From positions 1-24,863 of the IMG/VR virus record IMGVR_UViG_3300009187_000073: 24,863 nucleotides of DNA; one strand, written 5' to 3'. The notes under the pieces were generated by a model. It did not search any database. It saw only the letters and a program-made list of their open reading frames with translations, and was not told the DNA's origin. Made by a program: the position numbers and the translations under genes. This DNA is from a virus. Shown piece after piece: positions 7,101 through 22,872 of the stretch (positions are counted from its first letter, which is position 1; every line of letters starts with the position of its first letter).

Positions 7101-10088
7101 TTAGCTAACTTGGCAATCTTCGCTCTCAATTTCAACAGGGAGAGCTTGTCCTGAGTTCTTACCTTTAAGGTCAACGGCGCGAGCCTTTTTAACCGTAATT
7201 TCAGAAGTTTTTGCAGCAACGCGAAGACCAACGGCCTTTTCTTTGCCTTCAAGAGCTTCAGCACGAACGTTTTCAACTGATACGTCGGATGACTTACCGC
7301 GAATTTCAACGCCAGCAATCATGCTACCTGATTTACTGTCTGCAACAAGAACATCTTCAATAGATCCATCGGTACATCCGTTAATGGAAACACCGCGAAT
7401 TTTATGAACACCTGATTCTGGTTCAGACTCTTCATTGACACCGAATGCAACTTGTTGTGCATCCGAGCCTAGAGACTTAATAGAATCTTTTGCATCAGCA
7501 GTCTGGTGATCTTTAATCACAACGCGCTCAACGCTGAATCCAGCGGCACTGTCAATACGAACACCGAAAGAACCTTTATGAACGTGATGTTGTCCATCGA
7601 GGTTACGAACGAGTTTGTAGGTGACTGGACCACTTCCTGAACCGAATCCGAGTAGAGAAGCGCACTGTTCATAAGTAACAGGAGTTTCGCTGTCGGCAGT
7701 TACAAGAGCTAAAGTTTCAGAGTTAACAAGTTTTAGCTTGAAGAGACTGTCGCTTAGATCTGGCAATAGAGCTGCTGAGTAAGCAACGGTTTGACGACGA
7801 TCAGTTCTAGCTGCTGCTTGTTCAAGAATTTTATCTTTGTCGATAGACAAAGATCCATCTGCTTTTTCAAGCCAAGGATAAATTTCACCATAGCCATAAT
7901 AAGTGCCGTCATCTTGGAAAATATCTCCCTGATAACCACCTTTTAGACCAACGTGGTTAGCAGTAAGAGCACCAAGAGCACTCATCATTGATTTACGAAG
8001 TGCAAGAACACCGATATCAATGTTTGAATTATCAACGCCACCTAGCTGTGCTTGTGGAATCGCTCCGGTGAAGTACTTTTTAAGTAATTGCGCTGCTTCA
8101 ACTGCGGCAAGACCAGCTTCAACAACATCGTTTCCTTTGTACAATCCGCTTGCTTTTTTAGCGGTCCATGCAGAAGAACCACCAGCTGCAACATAGTTAG
8201 CTACAGCTTTAGCTGCTGTATCAAATGAGTCTACTGGTTTTGCTTCGGCAGCATATGCTTTTGCAACAGATTCAATCGCTTCTTTTGAAAGAAGGAGTGT
8301 TGCTGGTGCCATAGAAGCTGCATCAGATTGAGCATTAGTGTATCCAAATGGACGCAATCCGTTTCCATTAAAGGTTTTGTTAAATCCCTTTCCTGGGGCA
8401 GCAATTGCAATTGTTTCCATTGGAGCAAGATGCATTCCACTGAAAGTACAATCAAGAATATAAATATCTTGAACAGTACCGCCGCGAGAAGACGCTAGAG
8501 GACCAACGCCTTCGGAACTAGACCCAACACGGAAACCATAAGAAACAGAGTCAGGATAACGGAATCCATCTGATGTTCTTGGGTTTTGTGCAATAAGGTT
8601 AGTAGAACGTGGAATCTGTGCAACACTTGTCATTTGCTGTAAACCGTTCATAGCAAGACCAGCGCGATTAGCTCCAGCAACGTTTAATGCATTGTGGCCA
8701 GTGTTAACTTGAATGTAAGTGTCATCGGCAGATTTCATTGATTTGCGATGAGCAGCTTGCATTGCGAGAAGGGCTTTACGAACACCAGCTGCTTGAGCAG
8801 AAGGAACACCTGCTGTAACAAGTTCAGCTTCTGATTTAATTACAGGATAACGTGTTGTTTTCCCGTTTCCGAAAGTATCGGTTGCACCGCTCGCGATTGA
8901 ATCCCACTTCATCCAAGGACAAGCTAATGCCCCAGAGGTTGCCCAAGTTGAAGGACGTTCAAAATAACCAAGCATAATTTCTACGTTAGCTAACTGTGCA
9001 TAGTGAGAAAGCGCCATAGAGCTGTTTGAAACTGCTTTATTGAGCATTTCTTGATGAACATCTTTAAAAACAATCTGTGAAGAATCGTTAAAAATTGCTG
9101 TTCCGAAATATGAACCTTGGTTAACAGTTGAAGCGTTTCCTGAAGAAATACCTTCAACTAAGAGCCCTTTTACAAAATGGCCGCGAATAGCAAAGTGGTT
9201 GTTACGAGCGAGTCGTCCAACACCAGTTGAGCTATAGATGTGAGCATTTTGAGCACCTTTTGATGAAAGACCAGCAAAGTGACCATCTGATAAGTCAATG
9301 ATTGAGCTAAAAGCGGCAACTCGATTTGGACGCTCGTGCGCACCAATACTAAAACCAGCTAAATCAATAACTTGATCCTTACCCCACATACGAATCTCAG
9401 AGTTTACCCCAAGAAGCATGATTGGTTGTCTAGATGCATCGGTAGTAGACCAAAGAGACACTGGATCTTTAAGATACTCAACATCACCGCGATAGTTAAC
9501 GGGTTTTGCAAATCCACGGTGAGAAAGTGACTCTTGTTCAACTGTACCAGGGAGTGCGTGAACTAATCCTGTATTTTGAACGCCGTTTAAAGTGCTGTTT
9601 GCCGCTTGAAAGCCAGGGAAAATAGCGTTACGAATAGCGTTAACAATATCGCCCATTAGTTTTAATTGACAAGGAACTTCACCAAGAATAACAGTTCCCC
9701 AACGAAGTGCAGCATCGTCAGCGAATAGTAGAACTGTTTTTCCAGAAGCACGCTTTTTAAGCGCATCCATCATTGTTCCAGAAGGAATTCCGTCTGCGAT
9801 GTTGGCTGCTTTAATAGAAGCAAGGTCAAGAACAACGCGAGTACCAATAACAGTACCATCTTCGCGATGATCGGGAACGCGAGTTTCGCGACGACCATTG
9901 TTAGCAACAAGTGCTCCACCAACAGCAGCTGGTGCTGTTGATGAACCTGGCGCTCCACCAACAGGAATCAACCCAATTGCTTCGTCGAAACGAATTGTGC
10001 CACCTGCTTCATATTTTTTTACAAGACGCTCGCGCTCTGCTTTTAGTTTTTGATAGAGTGCTTCGCCTTTTAATTTTGATTTACTCAT
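7101..10088 (-). CDS. Large beta-helix-like virion protein (995 aa)
   Basis: The N-terminus (1-30) is a charged helix (KLKGEALYQKLKAERERLVK), possibly for virion attachment, and then the protein becomes Gly/Ala/Val-rich. Many rung-like segments suggest a parallel beta-helix: VNSEIRMWGKDQVIDLAGFS, NNHFAIRGHFVKGLLVEGIS, GTAIFNDSSQIVFKDV. Near the end a regular series of about 20-25-residue rungs appears (HKIRGVSINGCTDGSIEDVL, AGVEIRGKSSDVSVENVRAE, VGLRVAAKTSEITVKKARAV). A helical insertion rich in Ala occurs around 580-650. It lies between two other large fibre-like genes and has its own AAAGGT ribosome-binding site and terminator. I see no enzymatic motif. It is most likely a fibre, spike or capsid-surface protein; the specific family is not recognised. 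Confidence 0.65.
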   Translation of the reverse strand: MSKSKLKGEALYQKLKAERERLVKKYEAGGTIRFDEAIGLIPVGGAPGSSTAPAAVGGALVANNGRRETRVPDHREDGTVIGTRVVLDLASIKAANIADGIPSGTMMDALKKRASGKTVLLFADDAALRWGTVILGEVPCQLKLMGDIVNAIRNAIFPGFQAANSTLNGVQNTGLVHALPGTVEQESLSHRGFAKPVNYRGDVEYLKDPVSLWSTTDASRQPIMLLGVNSEIRMWGKDQVIDLAGFSIGAHERPNRVAAFSSIIDLSDGHFAGLSSKGAQNAHIYSSTGVGRLARNNHFAIRGHFVKGLLVEGISSGNASTVNQGSYFGTAIFNDSSQIVFKDVHQEMLNKAVSNSSMALSHYAQLANVEIMLGYFERPSTWATSGALACPWMKWDSIASGATDTFGNGKTTRYPVIKSEAELVTAGVPSAQAAGVRKALLAMQAAHRKSMKSADDTYIQVNTGHNALNVAGANRAGLAMNGLQQMTSVAQIPRSTNLIAQNPRTSDGFRYPDSVSYGFRVGSSSEGVGPLASSRGGTVQDIYILDCTFSGMHLAPMETIAIAAPGKGFNKTFNGNGLRPFGYTNAQSDAASMAPATLLLSKEAIESVAKAYAAEAKPVDSFDTAAKAVANYVAAGGSSAWTAKKASGLYKGNDVVEAGLAAVEAAQLLKKYFTGAIPQAQLGGVDNSNIDIGVLALRKSMMSALGALTANHVGLKGGYQGDIFQDDGTYYGYGEIYPWLEKADGSLSIDKDKILEQAAARTDRRQTVAYSAALLPDLSDSLFKLKLVNSETLALVTADSETPVTYEQCASLLGFGSGSGPVTYKLVRNLDGQHHVHKGSFGVRIDSAAGFSVERVVIKDHQTADAKDSIKSLGSDAQQVAFGVNEESEPESGVHKIRGVSINGCTDGSIEDVLVADSKSGSMIAGVEIRGKSSDVSVENVRAEALEGKEKAVGLRVAAKTSEITVKKARAVDLKGKNSGQALPVEIESEDCQVS

Positions 10089-10184: not shown

Positions 10185-12851
10185 TTACGAACGAACATCT
10201 TTTAAATACCTTACACGTAGTTTGTCACCAAGTGCAAGTGCTTCTGCTTCTCCTTGTAACATAGAGCCAGCAAAAGTTAATCTTGTTTTTCCGTTCATGA
10301 CAGAAACTTCATAATCTTCACCTTCAAGCATCATTAAACGATCAATTGAGAAAACAATTGACATTGAGAATGCTTTATGGCTAAGTTCAATGTAGTTATT
10401 TGCAATAGTTTGTGAAGAAACCATGAAGGAATCAACAGCAAAACGACCACCGAAATCATCAGCAAGACTTTCTGCGTATTGTTTTGCTTCCTGTTTAGCA
10501 GCAGCAATATAACCAGTGACAGAAGTAGCAAAATTTTCATCATTACCAAGAGCTTCTGCTAACTCACGAAGAGTATCGAGCATCTCTGGCGCAGAATCAA
10601 TAACCGCTGCTACTTTTTGATTGGTGTATTCTTTAGATTCAAAAAGAACGCGACTGTCTTCAGAAGCACGTAATGCTTCTTCTGCATCAATTTCATATTG
10701 AAGTTGAGCTTCACGAGCCATCGCACGAGTTTCTTCTGCAAGAACTTCAGCGTCGGTGTATACTTTAGATTCAGAAAGAACACGAATATCTTCGCTTGCA
10801 CGAAGTAGTTCTTCAGCATCAATTTCAGATTGAAGTAAAGCTTCAACACCCATTGCTCGTGTTTTTTCAGCATCGGTATAAGTTTTAGCTTCACCAAGAA
10901 CACGAATATCTTCAGAAGCACGAAGTGTTGCTTCTGCTGAATCAGCGGCAATACGTGCAGCGGTTTCAGCAGCTTCAGCTGCCATTGCGCGAGTTTTTTC
11001 AGCATCAGTGTATGCTTTAGCTTCACCAAGAACTCTTACATCTTCGCTTGCACGAAGAGCCGCTTCAGCAGCTTCAGCTGCCATCGCACGAGTTTCTTCT
11101 GCGTTAACATCAGAAATACGATCTACAATTTCTTGATCTAAGTCAAATCGTAATTCTTGTGCATAACCATCTAAATCGTCAAGATCTAGTCTGATTGCAG
11201 CATCAGCAGCAGCAAATTCAGAACGAATTGCAGCTTCTTGTGCCATTGCACGAGCTTTTTCGACATCAGTGTATGCTTTAGCTTCACCAAGAACTCTTAC
11301 ATCTTCAGAAGCACGGAGGAGTTCTTCGGCATCAATTTCAGATTGAAGCTGGGCTTCACGAGCCATTGCACGAACTTCTTCAGCATCAATTTCGGATTGA
11401 AGTTGAGCTTCACGAGCCATCGCACGTGATTCTTCAGCATCAATGTCTGACTGAAGTCCAGCTTCAGCTGCCATTGCACGAGCTTTTTCAGCGTCGGTGT
11501 ATGCCATTGCATCAGATTCAGCTTTAGCAATTGACCCTTCACCAGTTCCTTCTATAACATCTAAACGAGTTTCATGATCGTATAGTTGTGATAAAATTTG
11601 TGAGGTTGCAGTTTGATCTGAAGCAATATACTCAGCAATTTCACGAAGAGTATTATACGCTTCGGGAGCGGCATCAATAACAGACGCAATGCTCATGTCT
11701 GTGTATGCTTTAGATTCACTTAATACACGGGCATCTTCAGATTCACGAGTTAAAGCTTCAGCAGCTTCAGCAGCCATTGCACGAACTTTTTCTTCGTCAG
11801 TATATGCTTTAGCTTCACCGAGAACCCGAATGTCTTCAGAAGCACGTAATTCTTCTTCTGCATCAATTTCAGATTGAAGTGCTTCTTCTGCAAGCTGTGC
11901 TCGGGATTCCTCTGTCCAAATTTGTTCTTGAAGATATTGCTCGGCTGCCATTGCACGAACTTTTTCTTCGTCAGTATACAATTTAGCTTCACTTAATACA
12001 CGAATATCTTCAGAAGCGCGAGTTGTAATTTCTTGCTCTATATCAAAATGTAATTCGTCAAGACCTAGTCTGATTTCAGCATCAGCAGCTGCAAATTCAG
12101 AACGAATTGCCGCTTCTTGCACCATTGCACGATATTCTTCATTAAGAACTATTTGATTGGTGTAAGTTTTAGATTCAGATAATACACGAACGTCTTCAGA
12201 CGCACGAAGTTCTGCTTCAGCAGCTTCAGCTGCCATTGCGCGAGTTTTTTCTGCGTCAGTATATAATTTAGACTCAGAAAGAACGCGAGCATCTTCAGAA
12301 GTTCGAGTTGCAATTTCAGAATCTAGATCATCACGAAGCAATTGATCAGCAGCTTCTCTAGCTGTTTTTTCAACTAAATCAGCAGCAGCAAAGTCATAAC
12401 GAATGTCGGCATCTTCCGCAGAACGGATTGCTGCTTCTTCTGAAACTTTTTCGTCTGTATAATCTTTAGATTCTAGTAAAACCAAAGCATCAGCAGCTGC
12501 AAATTCTCCACGAATTGCAGAGTCTGCATCTTCACGAGCAGCTTGTTCAGCGGCATCAGCGGCTGCACGAGCAAGAGCTTCTGCTGCATCAGCAGCTGCA
12601 CGAGCAAGAGCTTCTGCTGCATCACCAGCATCAACATAAGATTTTCTTGCCAATTCATTTGCATGAGTTGGGTCATAAGAAACTCTTGGCATCTCTAGAA
12701 GTTGGAATTTATTATCAGAATCTAGTTTAAATAAAGCAGCTTCAGAACCATCTACTTTAAGTGCTTTAAATGAATCTTCATTTAAAAATAAGACTTTAGA
12801 ACCATCTACGCTCTGCGAACGTAAAAACTTCTTTTTGATTTGAATACTCAT
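10185..12851 (-). CDS. Long repetitive fibre protein with coiled-coil repeats (888 aa)
   Basis: Residues 1-75 form a small N-terminal domain (RSQSVDGSKVLFLNEDSFKA, with a second VDGSEAALFKL). Residues about 75-115 are Ala/Glu repeats (EALARAAADAA). Then come about twelve units built on R.SED.RVL.E.K.YTD.EK.RAMA.EA, a trimeric coiled-coil-type pattern. Two modules of the type VIDxAPExxxTLREIAExI occur mid-protein and near the end; that motif is widespread in phage tail fibres. The last 85 residues are globular (SSQTIANNYIELSHKAFSMS to GDKLRVRYLKD) and resemble the end of the neighbouring 147-aa protein. I chose the ATG at 12851, which has AAAGGAGA at ideal spacing; an in-frame ATG at 12902 has none. 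An inverted repeat could hide this ribosome-binding site. Confidence 0.85.
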   Translation of the reverse strand: MSIQIKKKFLRSQSVDGSKVLFLNEDSFKALKVDGSEAALFKLDSDNKFQLLEMPRVSYDPTHANELARKSYVDAGDAAEALARAAADAAEALARAAADAAEQAAREDADSAIRGEFAAADALVLLESKDYTDEKVSEEAAIRSAEDADIRYDFAAADLVEKTAREAADQLLRDDLDSEIATRTSEDARVLSESKLYTDAEKTRAMAAEAAEAELRASEDVRVLSESKTYTNQIVLNEEYRAMVQEAAIRSEFAAADAEIRLGLDELHFDIEQEITTRASEDIRVLSEAKLYTDEEKVRAMAAEQYLQEQIWTEESRAQLAEEALQSEIDAEEELRASEDIRVLGEAKAYTDEEKVRAMAAEAAEALTRESEDARVLSESKAYTDMSIASVIDAAPEAYNTLREIAEYIASDQTATSQILSQLYDHETRLDVIEGTGEGSIAKAESDAMAYTDAEKARAMAAEAGLQSDIDAEESRAMAREAQLQSEIDAEEVRAMAREAQLQSEIDAEELLRASEDVRVLGEAKAYTDVEKARAMAQEAAIRSEFAAADAAIRLDLDDLDGYAQELRFDLDQEIVDRISDVNAEETRAMAAEAAEAALRASEDVRVLGEAKAYTDAEKTRAMAAEAAETAARIAADSAEATLRASEDIRVLGEAKTYTDAEKTRAMGVEALLQSEIDAEELLRASEDIRVLSESKVYTDAEVLAEETRAMAREAQLQYEIDAEEALRASEDSRVLFESKEYTNQKVAAVIDSAPEMLDTLRELAEALGNDENFATSVTGYIAAAKQEAKQYAESLADDFGGRFAVDSFMVSSQTIANNYIELSHKAFSMSIVFSIDRLMMLEGEDYEVSVMNGKTRLTFAGSMLQGEAEALALGDKLRVRYLKDVRS
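10620..12485 (-). repeat. Internal tandem coding repeats, about 12 degenerate units
   Basis: The central part of the 888-aa fibre gene repeats the coding pattern for RASEDxRVLGEAKAYTDAEK followed by RAMAAEA. Units vary from about 33 to over 70 residues because of inserts such as QLQSEIDAEE, itself repeated back to back. Many units keep near-identical DNA (for example TTCAGCAGCTTCAGCTGCCAT on the plus strand), which makes the region prone to recombination and to assembly collapse. Confidence 0.85.
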
Positions 12852-12853
12852 AT

Positions 12854-12914
12854 TTTCTCCTTTTATGAGCTTTAAATACACCACTCCCTTGAATAGAAAC
12901 ATCCAAAGGAGAAA
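12854..12914 (-). promoter_or_regulatory. Inverted repeat that could mask the fibre gene's ribosome-binding site
   Basis: In the leader of the 888-aa gene, TTTCTCCTTT (12914-12905 on the minus strand) is the exact complement of AAAGGAGAAA (12863-12854), which contains the Shine-Dalgarno sequence three to nine bases from the ATG. The loop is 41 bases. If the stem forms, translation from 12851 would be blocked. Confidence 0.5.
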
Positions 12915-20210: not shown

Positions 20211-20732
20211 TTATTTTATGTGTTTTGTATCTTTATAGAATAATGTGGTCAAAGAATTATCGGAATATATTATGTTGTTTACTTTATTGTTGGGATAGTT
20301 GGTTTGTATGAAAGACGATGCATCATCCATTTTATCGAATATACCAACAATAATTTTATCGTTACGCTTATTAACCAGTAGAACGTGTATTTTATAATCT
20401 TTTGTAACGGCTATACGAACTTTATAGGACACAATTAATCTGTTAGTGTATGGAGTATACCCAGCGGATACAAACGCTTCTATAAGCTCTACAGCACGTA
20501 TCTTACGCGTTTTTATATCACACCCCCCCGATACAAGTAAAACGAATTGAAGATTGGGTAAATCACGGATTAACTTACGGCAGGAGTGAGATTTATCCTG
20601 AATTTGTGATATGTTTCTAGATACAGCTGCTAGAATATTATTACTATGAGAGATAAAGAATCGTTTATCTTTTTCATTAATAAAACCCCATACTCCGGGT
20701 TTAGAATAATCTAGTAAATCTTTTATGTTCAT
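20211..20732 (-). CDS. Degenerate GIY-YIG-like protein (173 aa)
   Basis: Residues 11-45 (KPGVWGFINEKDKRFFISHS, then NNILAAVSRNISQIQ) follow the GIY-YIG layout: GVW at the GIY position, FIS at the YIG position, an Arg (R39) after the SNN turn, Glu82 in AVELIEAF and Asn97 in YTPYTNR. Two catalytic Tyr positions are Trp15 and Phe26, so nuclease activity is doubtful. The C-terminal part (about 110-160) is a second small unit (YKIHVLLVNKRNDKIIVGIF, then DKMDDASSFI) that looks like a separate module, perhaps DNA- or protein-binding. The ATG at 20732 has no clear ribosome-binding site. A promoter-like motif lies about 145 bases upstream. It is the first gene of the minus-strand cluster. Confidence 0.6.
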   Translation of the reverse strand: MNIKDLLDYSKPGVWGFINEKDKRFFISHSNNILAAVSRNISQIQDKSHSCRKLIRDLPNLQFVLLVSGGCDIKTRKIRAVELIEAFVSAGYTPYTNRLIVSYKVRIAVTKDYKIHVLLVNKRNDKIIVGIFDKMDDASSFIQTNYPNNKVNNIIYSDNSLTTLFYKDTKHIK

Positions 20733-21032
20733 AAATTAACATCATATAATTGTGTCAATCAGTTTCATCCCATTTAATGATATCAACGACTTACAGAGTG
20801 ACAAATTACCTTTACACTAAGACAATATACAAAATAAACCCTATTTGTTGATATAACGCACATACAGGGTGTTTCTGTAATAGTTGTTAACTAATCTAAT
20901 TGTGTTTCTAGAATATATATTAAAAATTCGCGGATGGGCTTGGCTAACGCTATCGCACTCACAAAGTACCCTACCCCCCCCCTCCTCCTGGCATACTTCC
21001 TGCTACCTGCAATCCCCATACCTCAACTCAAC
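20733..21032. other. Gene-free divergent region, AT-rich then C-rich
   Basis: This stretch separates the leftward genes from the rightward RNA and genes. It holds one promoter-like motif, an AT-rich segment (about 20910-20927), a run of nine C at 20974-20982 followed by TCCTCCTGG, and ACAGGGTGTTT (20864-20874), which recurs at 21191-21201. No frame has a ribosome-binding site. Any promoter for the rightward RNA should lie here, but I see no clear -35/-10 pair. Confidence 0.5.
20877..20890 (-). promoter_or_regulatory. Promoter-like motif TTAACAACTATTAC upstream of the GIY-YIG-like gene
   Basis: Copy of the recurring motif followed by AGAAAC, the same bases that follow the scaffold copy (AGAAACC). 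It faces leftward with a leader of about 140 bases before the ATG at 20732. That leader holds no frame I can support. Confidence 0.5.
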
Positions 21033-21672
21033 CAGTTGAATAAACTGAACTAGTTGTGGCATGCCGTATGCAAGAAAGATTTTAGCACTAAATCGAATCG
21101 GTTGAATTTAGCCCTCTATTATATACAGGGTAGAACTAAACGGGAATGGTTTAGGTGGTGTCGAAGACCTTGACAGTGTCGATAAGTTCTACAGGGTGTT
21201 TGAATGGTGTGGCATGGGGAAGTCTAATGATATCAGGTATTTAGACGTTGGCATGGCTGCTGCAGTGATCGGTAGCATGACGATGCAGTCATGGGATAGC
21301 ACTAGATTCTCTCTCTCTCCTCTAGTGTTAACTCTCTCCTCTCTCCCGAAATACCCCACGGACGGGGTATCGTTGGCGGATGGTTCCCGCTAACCTGACG
21401 ATGGGAAACCCTTTGCATGAGTTGGTCTTCGTGCATCGTATAAGATAGACAAGCGATCGCGTGGCACTATGCCTGACGATTGCGCCGATAGGGTACCATG
21501 CTACAGCCTTAACTGGCTATGCTTTAACGCCCTATTGCCCCCGATAAGACGGTTACTGGTCCGGGGAATAGCCGATAATAAACGGTAGAAAGTCCGTTGC
21601 ATCGGAGTAGGTTCGAAACAATTCCAGGAATGGAATTGTCGCAAGGATTAACCTTGCCTGATGATGAACCTA
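21033..21672 (+). ncRNA. Large ornate structured RNA (about 640 nt), class not assigned
   Basis: A dense set of local helices covers this segment. Examples: CTAAAT/ATTTAG (21088-21111), GTAGAAC/GTTCTAC (21130-21136 with 21186-21192), CTAAAC/GTTTAG (21136-21154), GTCTAA/TTAGAC (21222-21246), CATGAC/GTCATG (21276-21293), CACTAGA/TCTAGTG (21300-21327), ATACCCC/GGGGTAT (21351-21370), GTTGGCGG/CCGCTAAC (21372-21394), ACGATG/CATCGT (21398-21439), GCGATCG/CGATTGC (21453-21483), CGATAGGG/CCCTATTG (21486-21537) and CCGAT/ATCGG enclosing AACGG/CCGTT (21572-21605). The end is a three-way junction, TAGGTTC/GAACCTA (21608-21614 with 21666-21672), holding two perfect hairpins. All wobble pairs are G-U on the plus strand. 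The ends are approximate. It lies just upstream of, and is probably co-transcribed with, the rightward genes. GOLLD or ROOL membership is possible but unchecked. Confidence 0.7.
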
Positions 21673-21689
21673 AACAAAGAGGATATATC

Positions 21690-21800
21690 ATGAAAAAACA
21701 AATTGACGCCATCGAATCCGAACTAAACTCTAATCTCTTTAATTTAACTTTAATCGTCTGCGGTGTTTTAATTCTTTACTGCATTAAGTTTTACGCTTAA
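21690..21800 (+). CDS. Small single-span membrane protein (36 aa)
   Basis: Begins MKKQIDAIESELNSNLFN and ends with a hydrophobic span (LTLIVCGVLILYCIKFYA, residues 19-36). The ATG at 21690 has AGAGGA at six bases. A longer frame from 21597 would run through the terminal three-way junction of the structured RNA and is unlikely. It is the first rightward gene, 17 bases after the RNA's last helix, so the RNA may act as its leader. Function unknown. Confidence 0.6.
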   Translation: MKKQIDAIESELNSNLFNLTLIVCGVLILYCIKFYA

Positions 21801-21825
21801 TAATATAACTAAGGAGTCAATGTAT

Positions 21826-22185
21826 ATGTCACAAAATACCTTGAAAATTAATGTTTCACCACCAATTGAAACAAAATGGGGATTTGATTTAACGTCAATC
21901 ACTGCTGAAAATTGGGGGAGAGTCCTACAGGCAGTTGGTATAAATAAAAAACCAAAACATGAAGACGTTATGTGGATTTGGTCCGGGGACGGAATTAAAA
22001 TTCACACTGGGAATGATCCAATTTCGGGTAAATATGCTCAAGGCCGTAGAGACGTAGAAAAGGATTATGCCAGCTATATTGGTTTATATGGGGAGAAGGC
22101 ATTAGTTGAAAAGGCCGCTAAAATTATCCGCGACCTTGCCGACGATATTAAGGAAGAAACACCAAACAATAGTGGATTTATATAA
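21826..22185 (+). CDS. Hypothetical protein (119 aa)
   Basis: Begins MSQNTLKINVSPPIETKWGF, with a middle rich in Trp and Gly (DVMWIWSGDGIKIHTGNDPI) and a helical end (ALVEKAAKIIRDLADDIKEE). It is soluble, with no known motif. The ATG at 21826 has AAGGAG at nine bases; the ATG at 21820 is too close (three bases). The leader CTAAGGAGTCAATG is near identical to that of the 211-aa gene, part of a shared ribosome-binding string in this arm. Gene family not recognised, though it looks conserved and folded. Confidence 0.65.
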   Translation: MSQNTLKINVSPPIETKWGFDLTSITAENWGRVLQAVGINKKPKHEDVMWIWSGDGIKIHTGNDPISGKYAQGRRDVEKDYASYIGLYGEKALVEKAAKIIRDLADDIKEETPNNSGFI

Positions 22186-22236
22186 ACCGAAATCCAATAT
22201 TATAGTAATATAACCTTATATTAAGGAGTCGATGAT

Positions 22237-22872
22237 ATGTTAACCAAAAATGCTAAAATGAAACGCTCAGAGGGTTCGAGGTTTAAAAAAATATTCAATT
22301 GGACCATCCCCGCATTCATGACCAAGGACGGGTTTAAAACCTGCCCAATGGCCGGAGTTTGTGCGTCCGGTTGCTATGCTCGGATGGGCGCTTATGTTTG
22401 GTCCAATGTTTACGGAAAGCACGAGGCAAACTTGAAGCTAACCCAAGCCCCTGAATTCGTTCAGGCTATGAGTCTTGAGGTTAAGCGAGTCAAGGCGGAC
22501 CTAGTCCGTATCCATGACGCCGGTGACTTCTACTCTCTTGAGTATCTTTTGAAGTGGATTGACATTGCAAAACTCAATCCATCGGTGCAATTCTACGCAT
22601 ACACCAAAAGCGTAAGCATGGTCAAAAGTGTGACATTGCCTGATAACTTGACCATTATTTTCTCTCTAGGTGGGCGAGAAGATTACTTGATTGACACAAA
22701 AACCGATCGGCATAGCCGAGTTTTTTCCTCGATTGAACAATTGCAAGCTTCGGGATACGTCGATACTAGTCACGACGATACCCATGCAATCGGCGTCAAT
22801 CATCGAATCGGGTTAGTATACCACGGCAATAAAAAATTCGATAACACGGCATGGGATCGGGTTAGCGCATAA
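22237..22872 (+). CDS. Gp88-like phage protein with Cys cluster (211 aa)
   Basis: Matches the pattern of the Gene product 88 family first named in mycobacteriophages: a Cys-rich box CPMAGVCASGCYARMGAY (Cys at 36, 42, 46), a downstream Asn/Lys-rich helix, then RIHDAGDFYSLEYLLKWIDI and VQFYAYTKSVSMV. The three-Cys cluster plus HDAGDFYS recalls iron-sulphur or radical-SAM-like small proteins (the related phage Gp37/Gp68 group), but a full SAM-binding set is not seen. The end (VSSIEQLQASGYVDT region and HRIGLVYHG) fits the family length. TTAAGGAGTC lies upstream. The function of the family is not established. Confidence 0.65.
   Translation: MLTKNAKMKRSEGSRFKKIFNWTIPAFMTKDGFKTCPMAGVCASGCYARMGAYVWSNVYGKHEANLKLTQAPEFVQAMSLEVKRVKADLVRIHDAGDFYSLEYLLKWIDIAKLNPSVQFYAYTKSVSMVKSVTLPDNLTIIFSLGGREDYLIDTKTDRHSRVFSSIEQLQASGYVDTSHDDTHAIGVNHRIGLVYHGNKKFDNTAWDRVSA

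Follow-up and report, generated by a model that had tools for sequence, protein, structure and literature searches.

Introduction

Type II hammerhead ribozymes were described in phages in 2011, including clusters that flank genes (PMC3088659). A 2026 preprint describes guide-RNA (vrRNA) arrays interspersed with hammerheads in VIPR systems (PMC13142463). Retrozymes and other hammerhead circular RNAs (PMC7761336) place a small RNA between two direct hammerheads; those described are mostly type I or III, occur as repeated copies, and belong to eukaryotes. The reason phages carry hammerheads was still called unknown in 2023 (PMC10085705).

The window analysed here is the whole 24,863-nucleotide stretch of an environmental phage (IMG/VR record IMGVR_UViG_3300009187_000073). 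It contains a switch point between leftward structural and packaging genes (terminase, P22/SU10-like portal) and rightward genes (GP88 family, DUF932). The minus strand at 10185-12902 also encodes a probable long, fibre-like protein of 905 aa, which is built from repeats of a SEDxRVLxEAKxYTDxEKxRAMA-like unit.

Between the two gene blocks lies a conserved, plus-sense, structured noncoding RNA built around two ribozymes of the type II hammerhead class. Like the prophage clusters (PMC3088659), this phage group has several same-sense hammerheads close together, and in five relatives they bracket small genes. The window's clade differs in that its hammerheads enclose a conserved noncoding RNA.

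The VIPR arrays (PMC13142463) are the nearest precedent, as they too hold a phage noncoding RNA set off from its neighbours by hammerheads. Unlike vrRNA, the RNA of the window is one folded unit. Identity with vrRNA was rejected because the defining GGY/NN tandem repeats (9-16 units) are absent from the window, which has no exact three-unit run and a best tolerant score of 3 of 9 units. Unlike retrozymes, the locus is of type II, is present in a single copy, has two unlike ribozymes, and resides in a phage. A retrozyme- or viroid-like repeated unit was also rejected, as the two end ribozymes have different helices and the record holds one copy.

Among the matches listed in a literature search that covered mostly journals outside subscription, hammerhead-bracketed phage noncoding RNA was reported only in the VIPR preprint, and no report on sigma-54 promoter arrays in phages appeared.

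Extent of the Structured RNA

A sequence-only reading of the window had proposed a structured RNA of about 640 nucleotides at 21033-21672. A structured RNA is present, but it is about half that length (21344-21672, approximately 330 nucleotides). Its position at the change of gene direction and its conserved, noncoding character were borne out by double-sided pair changes, both within the clade and with a distant relative, and by the lack of a convincing reading frame across the region. The plus-strand sense also held, and the five wobble pairs named in its favour are all G-U or U-G on that strand. The reported base composition was accurate, with G or C at 34 of the 60 positions in 21361-21420. 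The GC fraction per 500 bp is 0.474-0.476 here, compared with 0.320-0.398 in three intervals to the left.

For the 671 nucleotides at 21020-21690, the plus strand has a folding z of -2.89, matched by 0 of 20 shuffles, and the minus strand one of -2.19, matched by 1 of 20. This signal sits on the right side. The segment between the predicted cuts has a z of -3.77, with 0 of 200 shuffles as stable, and the cargo alone has a z of -2.58 (1 of 200). The left part, 21033-21343, has a z of -0.39, with 23 of 100 shuffles as stable, so it is not unusually structured. Folding energy therefore upholds the proposed RNA in its right half and not in its left, which looks like promoter DNA with three sigma-54-type sites. 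The coordinates of all features are given in Table 1.

Table 1. Features at the gene-direction switch of the window.
Feature	Coordinates	Strand	Basis or remark
Conserved intergenic element with TTCTAGAA palindrome	20871..20984		BLAST pieces
Sigma-54-type (-24/-12) site 1	20989..21003	+	TGGCAY-N6-TGC pattern
Sigma-54-type site 2	21057..21071	+	TGGCAY-N6-TGC pattern
Sigma-54-type site 3	21249..21263	+	TGGCAY-N6-TGC pattern; putative transcription start near 21275
Hammerhead ribozyme 1, type II	21344..21406	+	Predicted cut after 21371
Predicted excised RNA, 269 nt	21372..21640	+	Between predicted cuts
Hammerhead 1 possible pseudoknot	21382..21410	+	Loop I GGUU 21382-21385 with tail AACC 21407-21410
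Cargo RNA between ribozymes	21408..21607	+	Nine helices in tested model; covariation, fold z
Hammerhead ribozyme 2, type II	21608..21672	+	Predicted cut after 21640
First rightward gene, 36 aa	21690..21800	+	Start 17 nt after hammerhead 2; AGAGGA upstream

Hammerhead Ribozymes

The descriptor used for scanning demands the full hammerhead core and three stems. It identified exactly two hammerheads in the window, both on the plus strand, against a chance expectation of 0.06 per window in Markov simulations. The two copies have 19 and 22 stem pairs; 19 or more were reached in 0 of 100 simulations. Neither complete ribozyme had been recognised in the sequence-only reading. The terminal three-way junction that it described does exist, and is hammerhead 2, the three-way junction of the minimum-energy fold.

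Hammerhead 1 has 4, 7, and 8 pairs in stems II, III, and I, and hammerhead 2 has 7, 9, and 6, respectively. Both contain the core in the order GAAA, stem III, UH, stem I, CUGANGA, with a UH cleavage site and an open stem II. The catalytic core, the three stems with stem II open, and the phage setting are those of type II hammerheads (RF02276; PMC3088659). Both copies differ from that type in carrying one extra U after the CUGANGA element (CUGACGA in hammerhead 1, CUGAUGA in hammerhead 2). Double-sided changes were found at one pair in stem I of hammerhead 1, and at two pairs each in stems II and III of hammerhead 2. Both have intact cores and are predicted to self-cleave.

Hammerhead 1, whose stem II is short, may also form the pseudoknot between loop I and the downstream tail. 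Perreault et al. (2011, PMC3088659) reported this contact in most type II hammerheads. In the clade its four pairs are invariant across four distinct sequences, so covariation lends it no support and the sequences give no test of the pairing.

The Rfam Hammerhead_II model (RF02276) matched hammerhead 1 at a permissive threshold (21344-21413, 31.7 bits, E 4e-4), below its gathering cutoff of 37 bits, and did not list hammerhead 2 even at E up to 10. Run over 39 related records, the model matched four at E up to 0.1, one of them above the cutoff. The hammerhead copy of relative L009 scores 40.6 bits, and record L003 was missed though it is identical to the window. The model is read here as narrow, because the full core and covarying stems are present. 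RF02276 covers the short pseudoknotted form, and the type II assignment was therefore kept on the core and covariation.

Cargo RNA and Its Conservation

Relatives were gathered by terminase searches and a GP88 search. The module of two ribozymes and the cargo between them is 100% identical in L002, L003, and duplicates, and matches at 88-90% in L004, L006/L030, L024/L032, and L031. The predicted cut-to-cut distance is 268-269 nucleotides across this clade. The L004 match is bounded by 21329 and 21678, with a gene just upstream and a different small gene after it. In L031 approximately 180 nucleotides are inserted after hammerhead 2. The module is thus retained where neighbouring genes differ.

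An 88-pair structure was compared across the clade, which offers four distinct sequences only. Pairing is kept in 97.2%, and the ribozyme cores are unchanged. Eight of the 88 pairs changed on both sides, a result seen in 0 of 500 shuffles, with 0-1 such pairs in slid controls. These eight are spread over stem I of hammerhead 1, stems II and III of hammerhead 2, and three cargo helices. Further pair types within the clade were no better than in shuffles (367 of 500).

A covariance model of the cargo alone (R1), run over 67 loci at E up to 1, matched six clade loci and one distant relative, L124. The L124 match (minus strand 819-983, E 0.03) ends at the L124 hammerhead (748-820), as in the window. 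With L124 added, 18 of 52 pairs are double-sided compared with 1-2 in slid controls, a figure that leans upward because the L124 alignment was fitted to the model. The gene next to the cargo differs in L124, and a sigma-54-type site lies about 70 nucleotides before the RNA. The descriptor scan found no second, upstream hammerhead in L124; the 5' hammerhead is seen in the window's clade only. The order shared by both is therefore promoter-like site, cargo RNA, hammerhead, gene. A second model (R2), built from the window and L124 and run over 63 loci, returned these two, an antisense L124 match (E 1.4e-4), and two further matches with E above 1. The cargo was found in no other relative with either model.

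Wider searches gave little more. An 18-mer search of genome contigs returned 13 stretches, which were treated as chance because BLAST of 20733-22240 gave only 20-base matches, in three of them. Two motif patterns returned 56 and 64 stretches in viral contigs, with no hammerhead near the motif except in the clade contigs and L208, which is the L124 contig. A DNA search of phages gave 10 records with matching stretches of 23-40 bases and no cultured relative. The top terminase match in a named phage (L170) is 31% identical, and all 440 matches are below 60%; the scan detected no hammerhead in L170, which has one sigma-54-like site.

Rfam release 15 contains no family matching the cargo RNA. At gathering cutoffs there was no match, and at E up to 10 there were six, none a known riboswitch and none GOLLD, ROOL, OLE, HEARO, or RNase P, the families against which a scan had been suggested. 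No tRNA or tmRNA was found. Protein coding between the cuts was rejected, as every plus frame has stops and the longest ORF in the window's copy is 39 aa. A GTG frame of 27-30 aa, with different ends and no evident ribosome-binding site, is common to the window, L004, and L006 because their DNA is alike. As far as these searches show, within the literature and databases covered, the cargo is a new RNA family, and its bracketing by hammerheads is also new.

No intrinsic terminators were found in 20700-22300. The first rightward gene has a hydrophobic C-terminal half and no family match.

Upstream Promoter-Like Region

Three TGGCAY-N6-TGC sites lie upstream of hammerhead 1, all on the plus strand. 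None occurs elsewhere in the window, and 0.28 were expected on both strands. The sigma-54 -24/-12 consensus is YTGGCAYR-N4-TTGCW. Sixty distinct sites from 19 related loci were picked by the TGGCAY-N6-TGC pattern, and their fit was judged at positions the pattern does not force. A pyrimidine precedes TGG in 49 of 60, a purine follows CAY in 54, and A or T follows TGC in 59; T precedes TGC in only 30. The sites thus fit the consensus at most unforced positions and are putative promoters. The interval 20700-22300 also has more sigma-70-like sites than expected (10 compared with 4.7, sd 1.9), so the promoter type is not fixed as sigma-54. The enhancer-binding domain PF00158 was found in 0 of 9 phage records and the RpoN DNA-binding domain PF04552 in 0 of 7, records that are possibly fragments. 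The host may supply RpoN and an enhancer-binding protein.

The conserved intergenic element that precedes these sites also holds a run of C. BLAST pieces within or overlapping it are 69-88% identical in L004, L006, L009, L015, L017, L019, L023, L024, and L031. Its TTCTAGAA palindrome, or a neighbour of it, lies 83-120 nucleotides before the first sigma-54-like site in the window, L004, L006, L031, L009, and L017. The element is possibly an activator- or repressor-binding region. Between it and the third site, the stretch 20985-21246 drew no match at E up to 0.01 from any clade member other than those identical to the window.

Similar arrays exist in other viral contigs. The GP88-bearing contigs L036 (9.6 kb) and L040 (12.7 kb) contain 22 and 13 sigma-54-type sites, which likewise fit the consensus at unforced positions, with A after TGC in 29 of 34 and T before TGC in 24 of 34. 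L034 has 11 sites and L039 has 7. In L122, L127, and L132 both strands of a single intergenic region carry sites, so such an array may drive genes in both directions.

Discussion

The best explanation of the locus, and a probable one, is a self-processing early leader that releases a trans-acting folded RNA. A plus-sense transcript would originate in the promoter-like region before 21344, with the sigma-54-type sites as its probable promoters. Hammerhead 1 would cut it after 21371 and hammerhead 2 after 21640. The cuts would free a folded noncoding RNA of 269 nucleotides with, from the hammerhead mechanism, a 5'-OH and a 2',3'-cyclic phosphate. The first rightward mRNA would begin with a 5'-OH, and a 6-bp hairpin would stand immediately before its ribosome-binding site. 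The liberated RNA is taken to be the product under selection because of its covariation, its persistence despite changes of neighbouring genes, and its presence in L124. It would be a stable small RNA that works in trans, its most likely partner being a protein of the host or the phage. Hammerheads in the relatives also favour this reading. Among 51 terminase-oriented loci scanned, 20 have a hammerhead in the early-gene sense; there were 32 sense matches and 2 antisense. Many of the 31 loci with none stop short of the region, and others reach it yet have none. Sequence simulated from 20 of these loci (1.02 Mb) yielded one match with the same scan, and a strict scan of other viral contigs (1.0 Mb) found only the L124 contig again.

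The main rival, possible though the less probable reading, is plain mRNA maturation, in which the hammerheads divide a long early transcript into messages of gene length whose ends are protected, and the structured segment between them is a leader or spacer with no trans role. This was proposed for prophages by Perreault et al. (PMC3088659). In L009, L144, L147, L152, and L153, two or three hammerheads bracket small genes, each with a segment holding a gene of 93-122 aa; the L144-L152 and L147-L153 protein pairs are 46-47% identical. Of the 32 sense hammerheads, 21 are followed at 1-48 nucleotides by a start codon that has a ribosome-binding-like sequence. The cargo helices covary, however, and the cargo is kept in L124 beside a different gene. 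A spacer alone would need no such fold, and maturation only is disfavoured for that reason.

Two side observations concern these genes and ribozymes. Homologues of the bracketed L009 protein are also present in L118/L119, L127, and L162. L069 has a single strict type II hammerhead (8010-8061) just upstream of a gene that appears DUF932-like by eye.

A natural allosteric ribozyme is improbable. The cargo would be a sensor that sets the rate of hammerhead 2 through the open stem II, putting the early message under the control of a ligand or protein. The cargo does directly abut stem II of hammerhead 2 and of the L124 hammerhead, but no ligand is known, no known riboswitch was matched, and in the clade hammerhead 1 would cut the 5' side of the domain itself.

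It is still less likely that the excised RNA is circularised in the manner of retrozymes and either spreads or functions in circular form. In favour of such an element are the two same-sense hammerheads, separated by a few hundred nucleotides, and the bounded match in L004; hammerhead ends are also substrates of RtcB. The two ribozymes differ in all helices, unlike those of tandem-copy elements. The window record has one module copy, and each of three longer records has one match. A search by Perreault et al. for circular or spliced products of clustered hammerheads turned up none (PMC3088659).

That the RNA is a divergent member of GOLLD, ROOL, or another giant phage family, as the sequence-only reading suggested, is very unlikely. 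The phage location and the many local helices speak for it; against it stand the ribozyme boundaries, the halved length, the unstructured left half, and the lack of any such Rfam match at E up to 10.

One elaboration of the self-processing leader is a long shot. The hammerhead products of the phage could switch on its early sigma-54 promoters and induce RtcB, which could circularise the excised RNA. RtcR, an enhancer-binding protein of the host that drives sigma-54 promoters, is activated by RNA ends with a 2',3'-cyclic phosphate (PMC9879122), and the array of sigma-54-type sites is directly upstream of the hammerheads.

For a self-processing leader, the exact cut sites and the 269-nucleotide RNA are predicted and can be tested in vitro. 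This phage group offers a repeatable setting, in which the early region has type II hammerheads of one sense next to sigma-54-type promoter-like arrays. The dense arrays of such sites in phages may merit a study of their own. The cargo between the hammerheads is exchangeable, being a small gene in some phages and a folded noncoding RNA in others.
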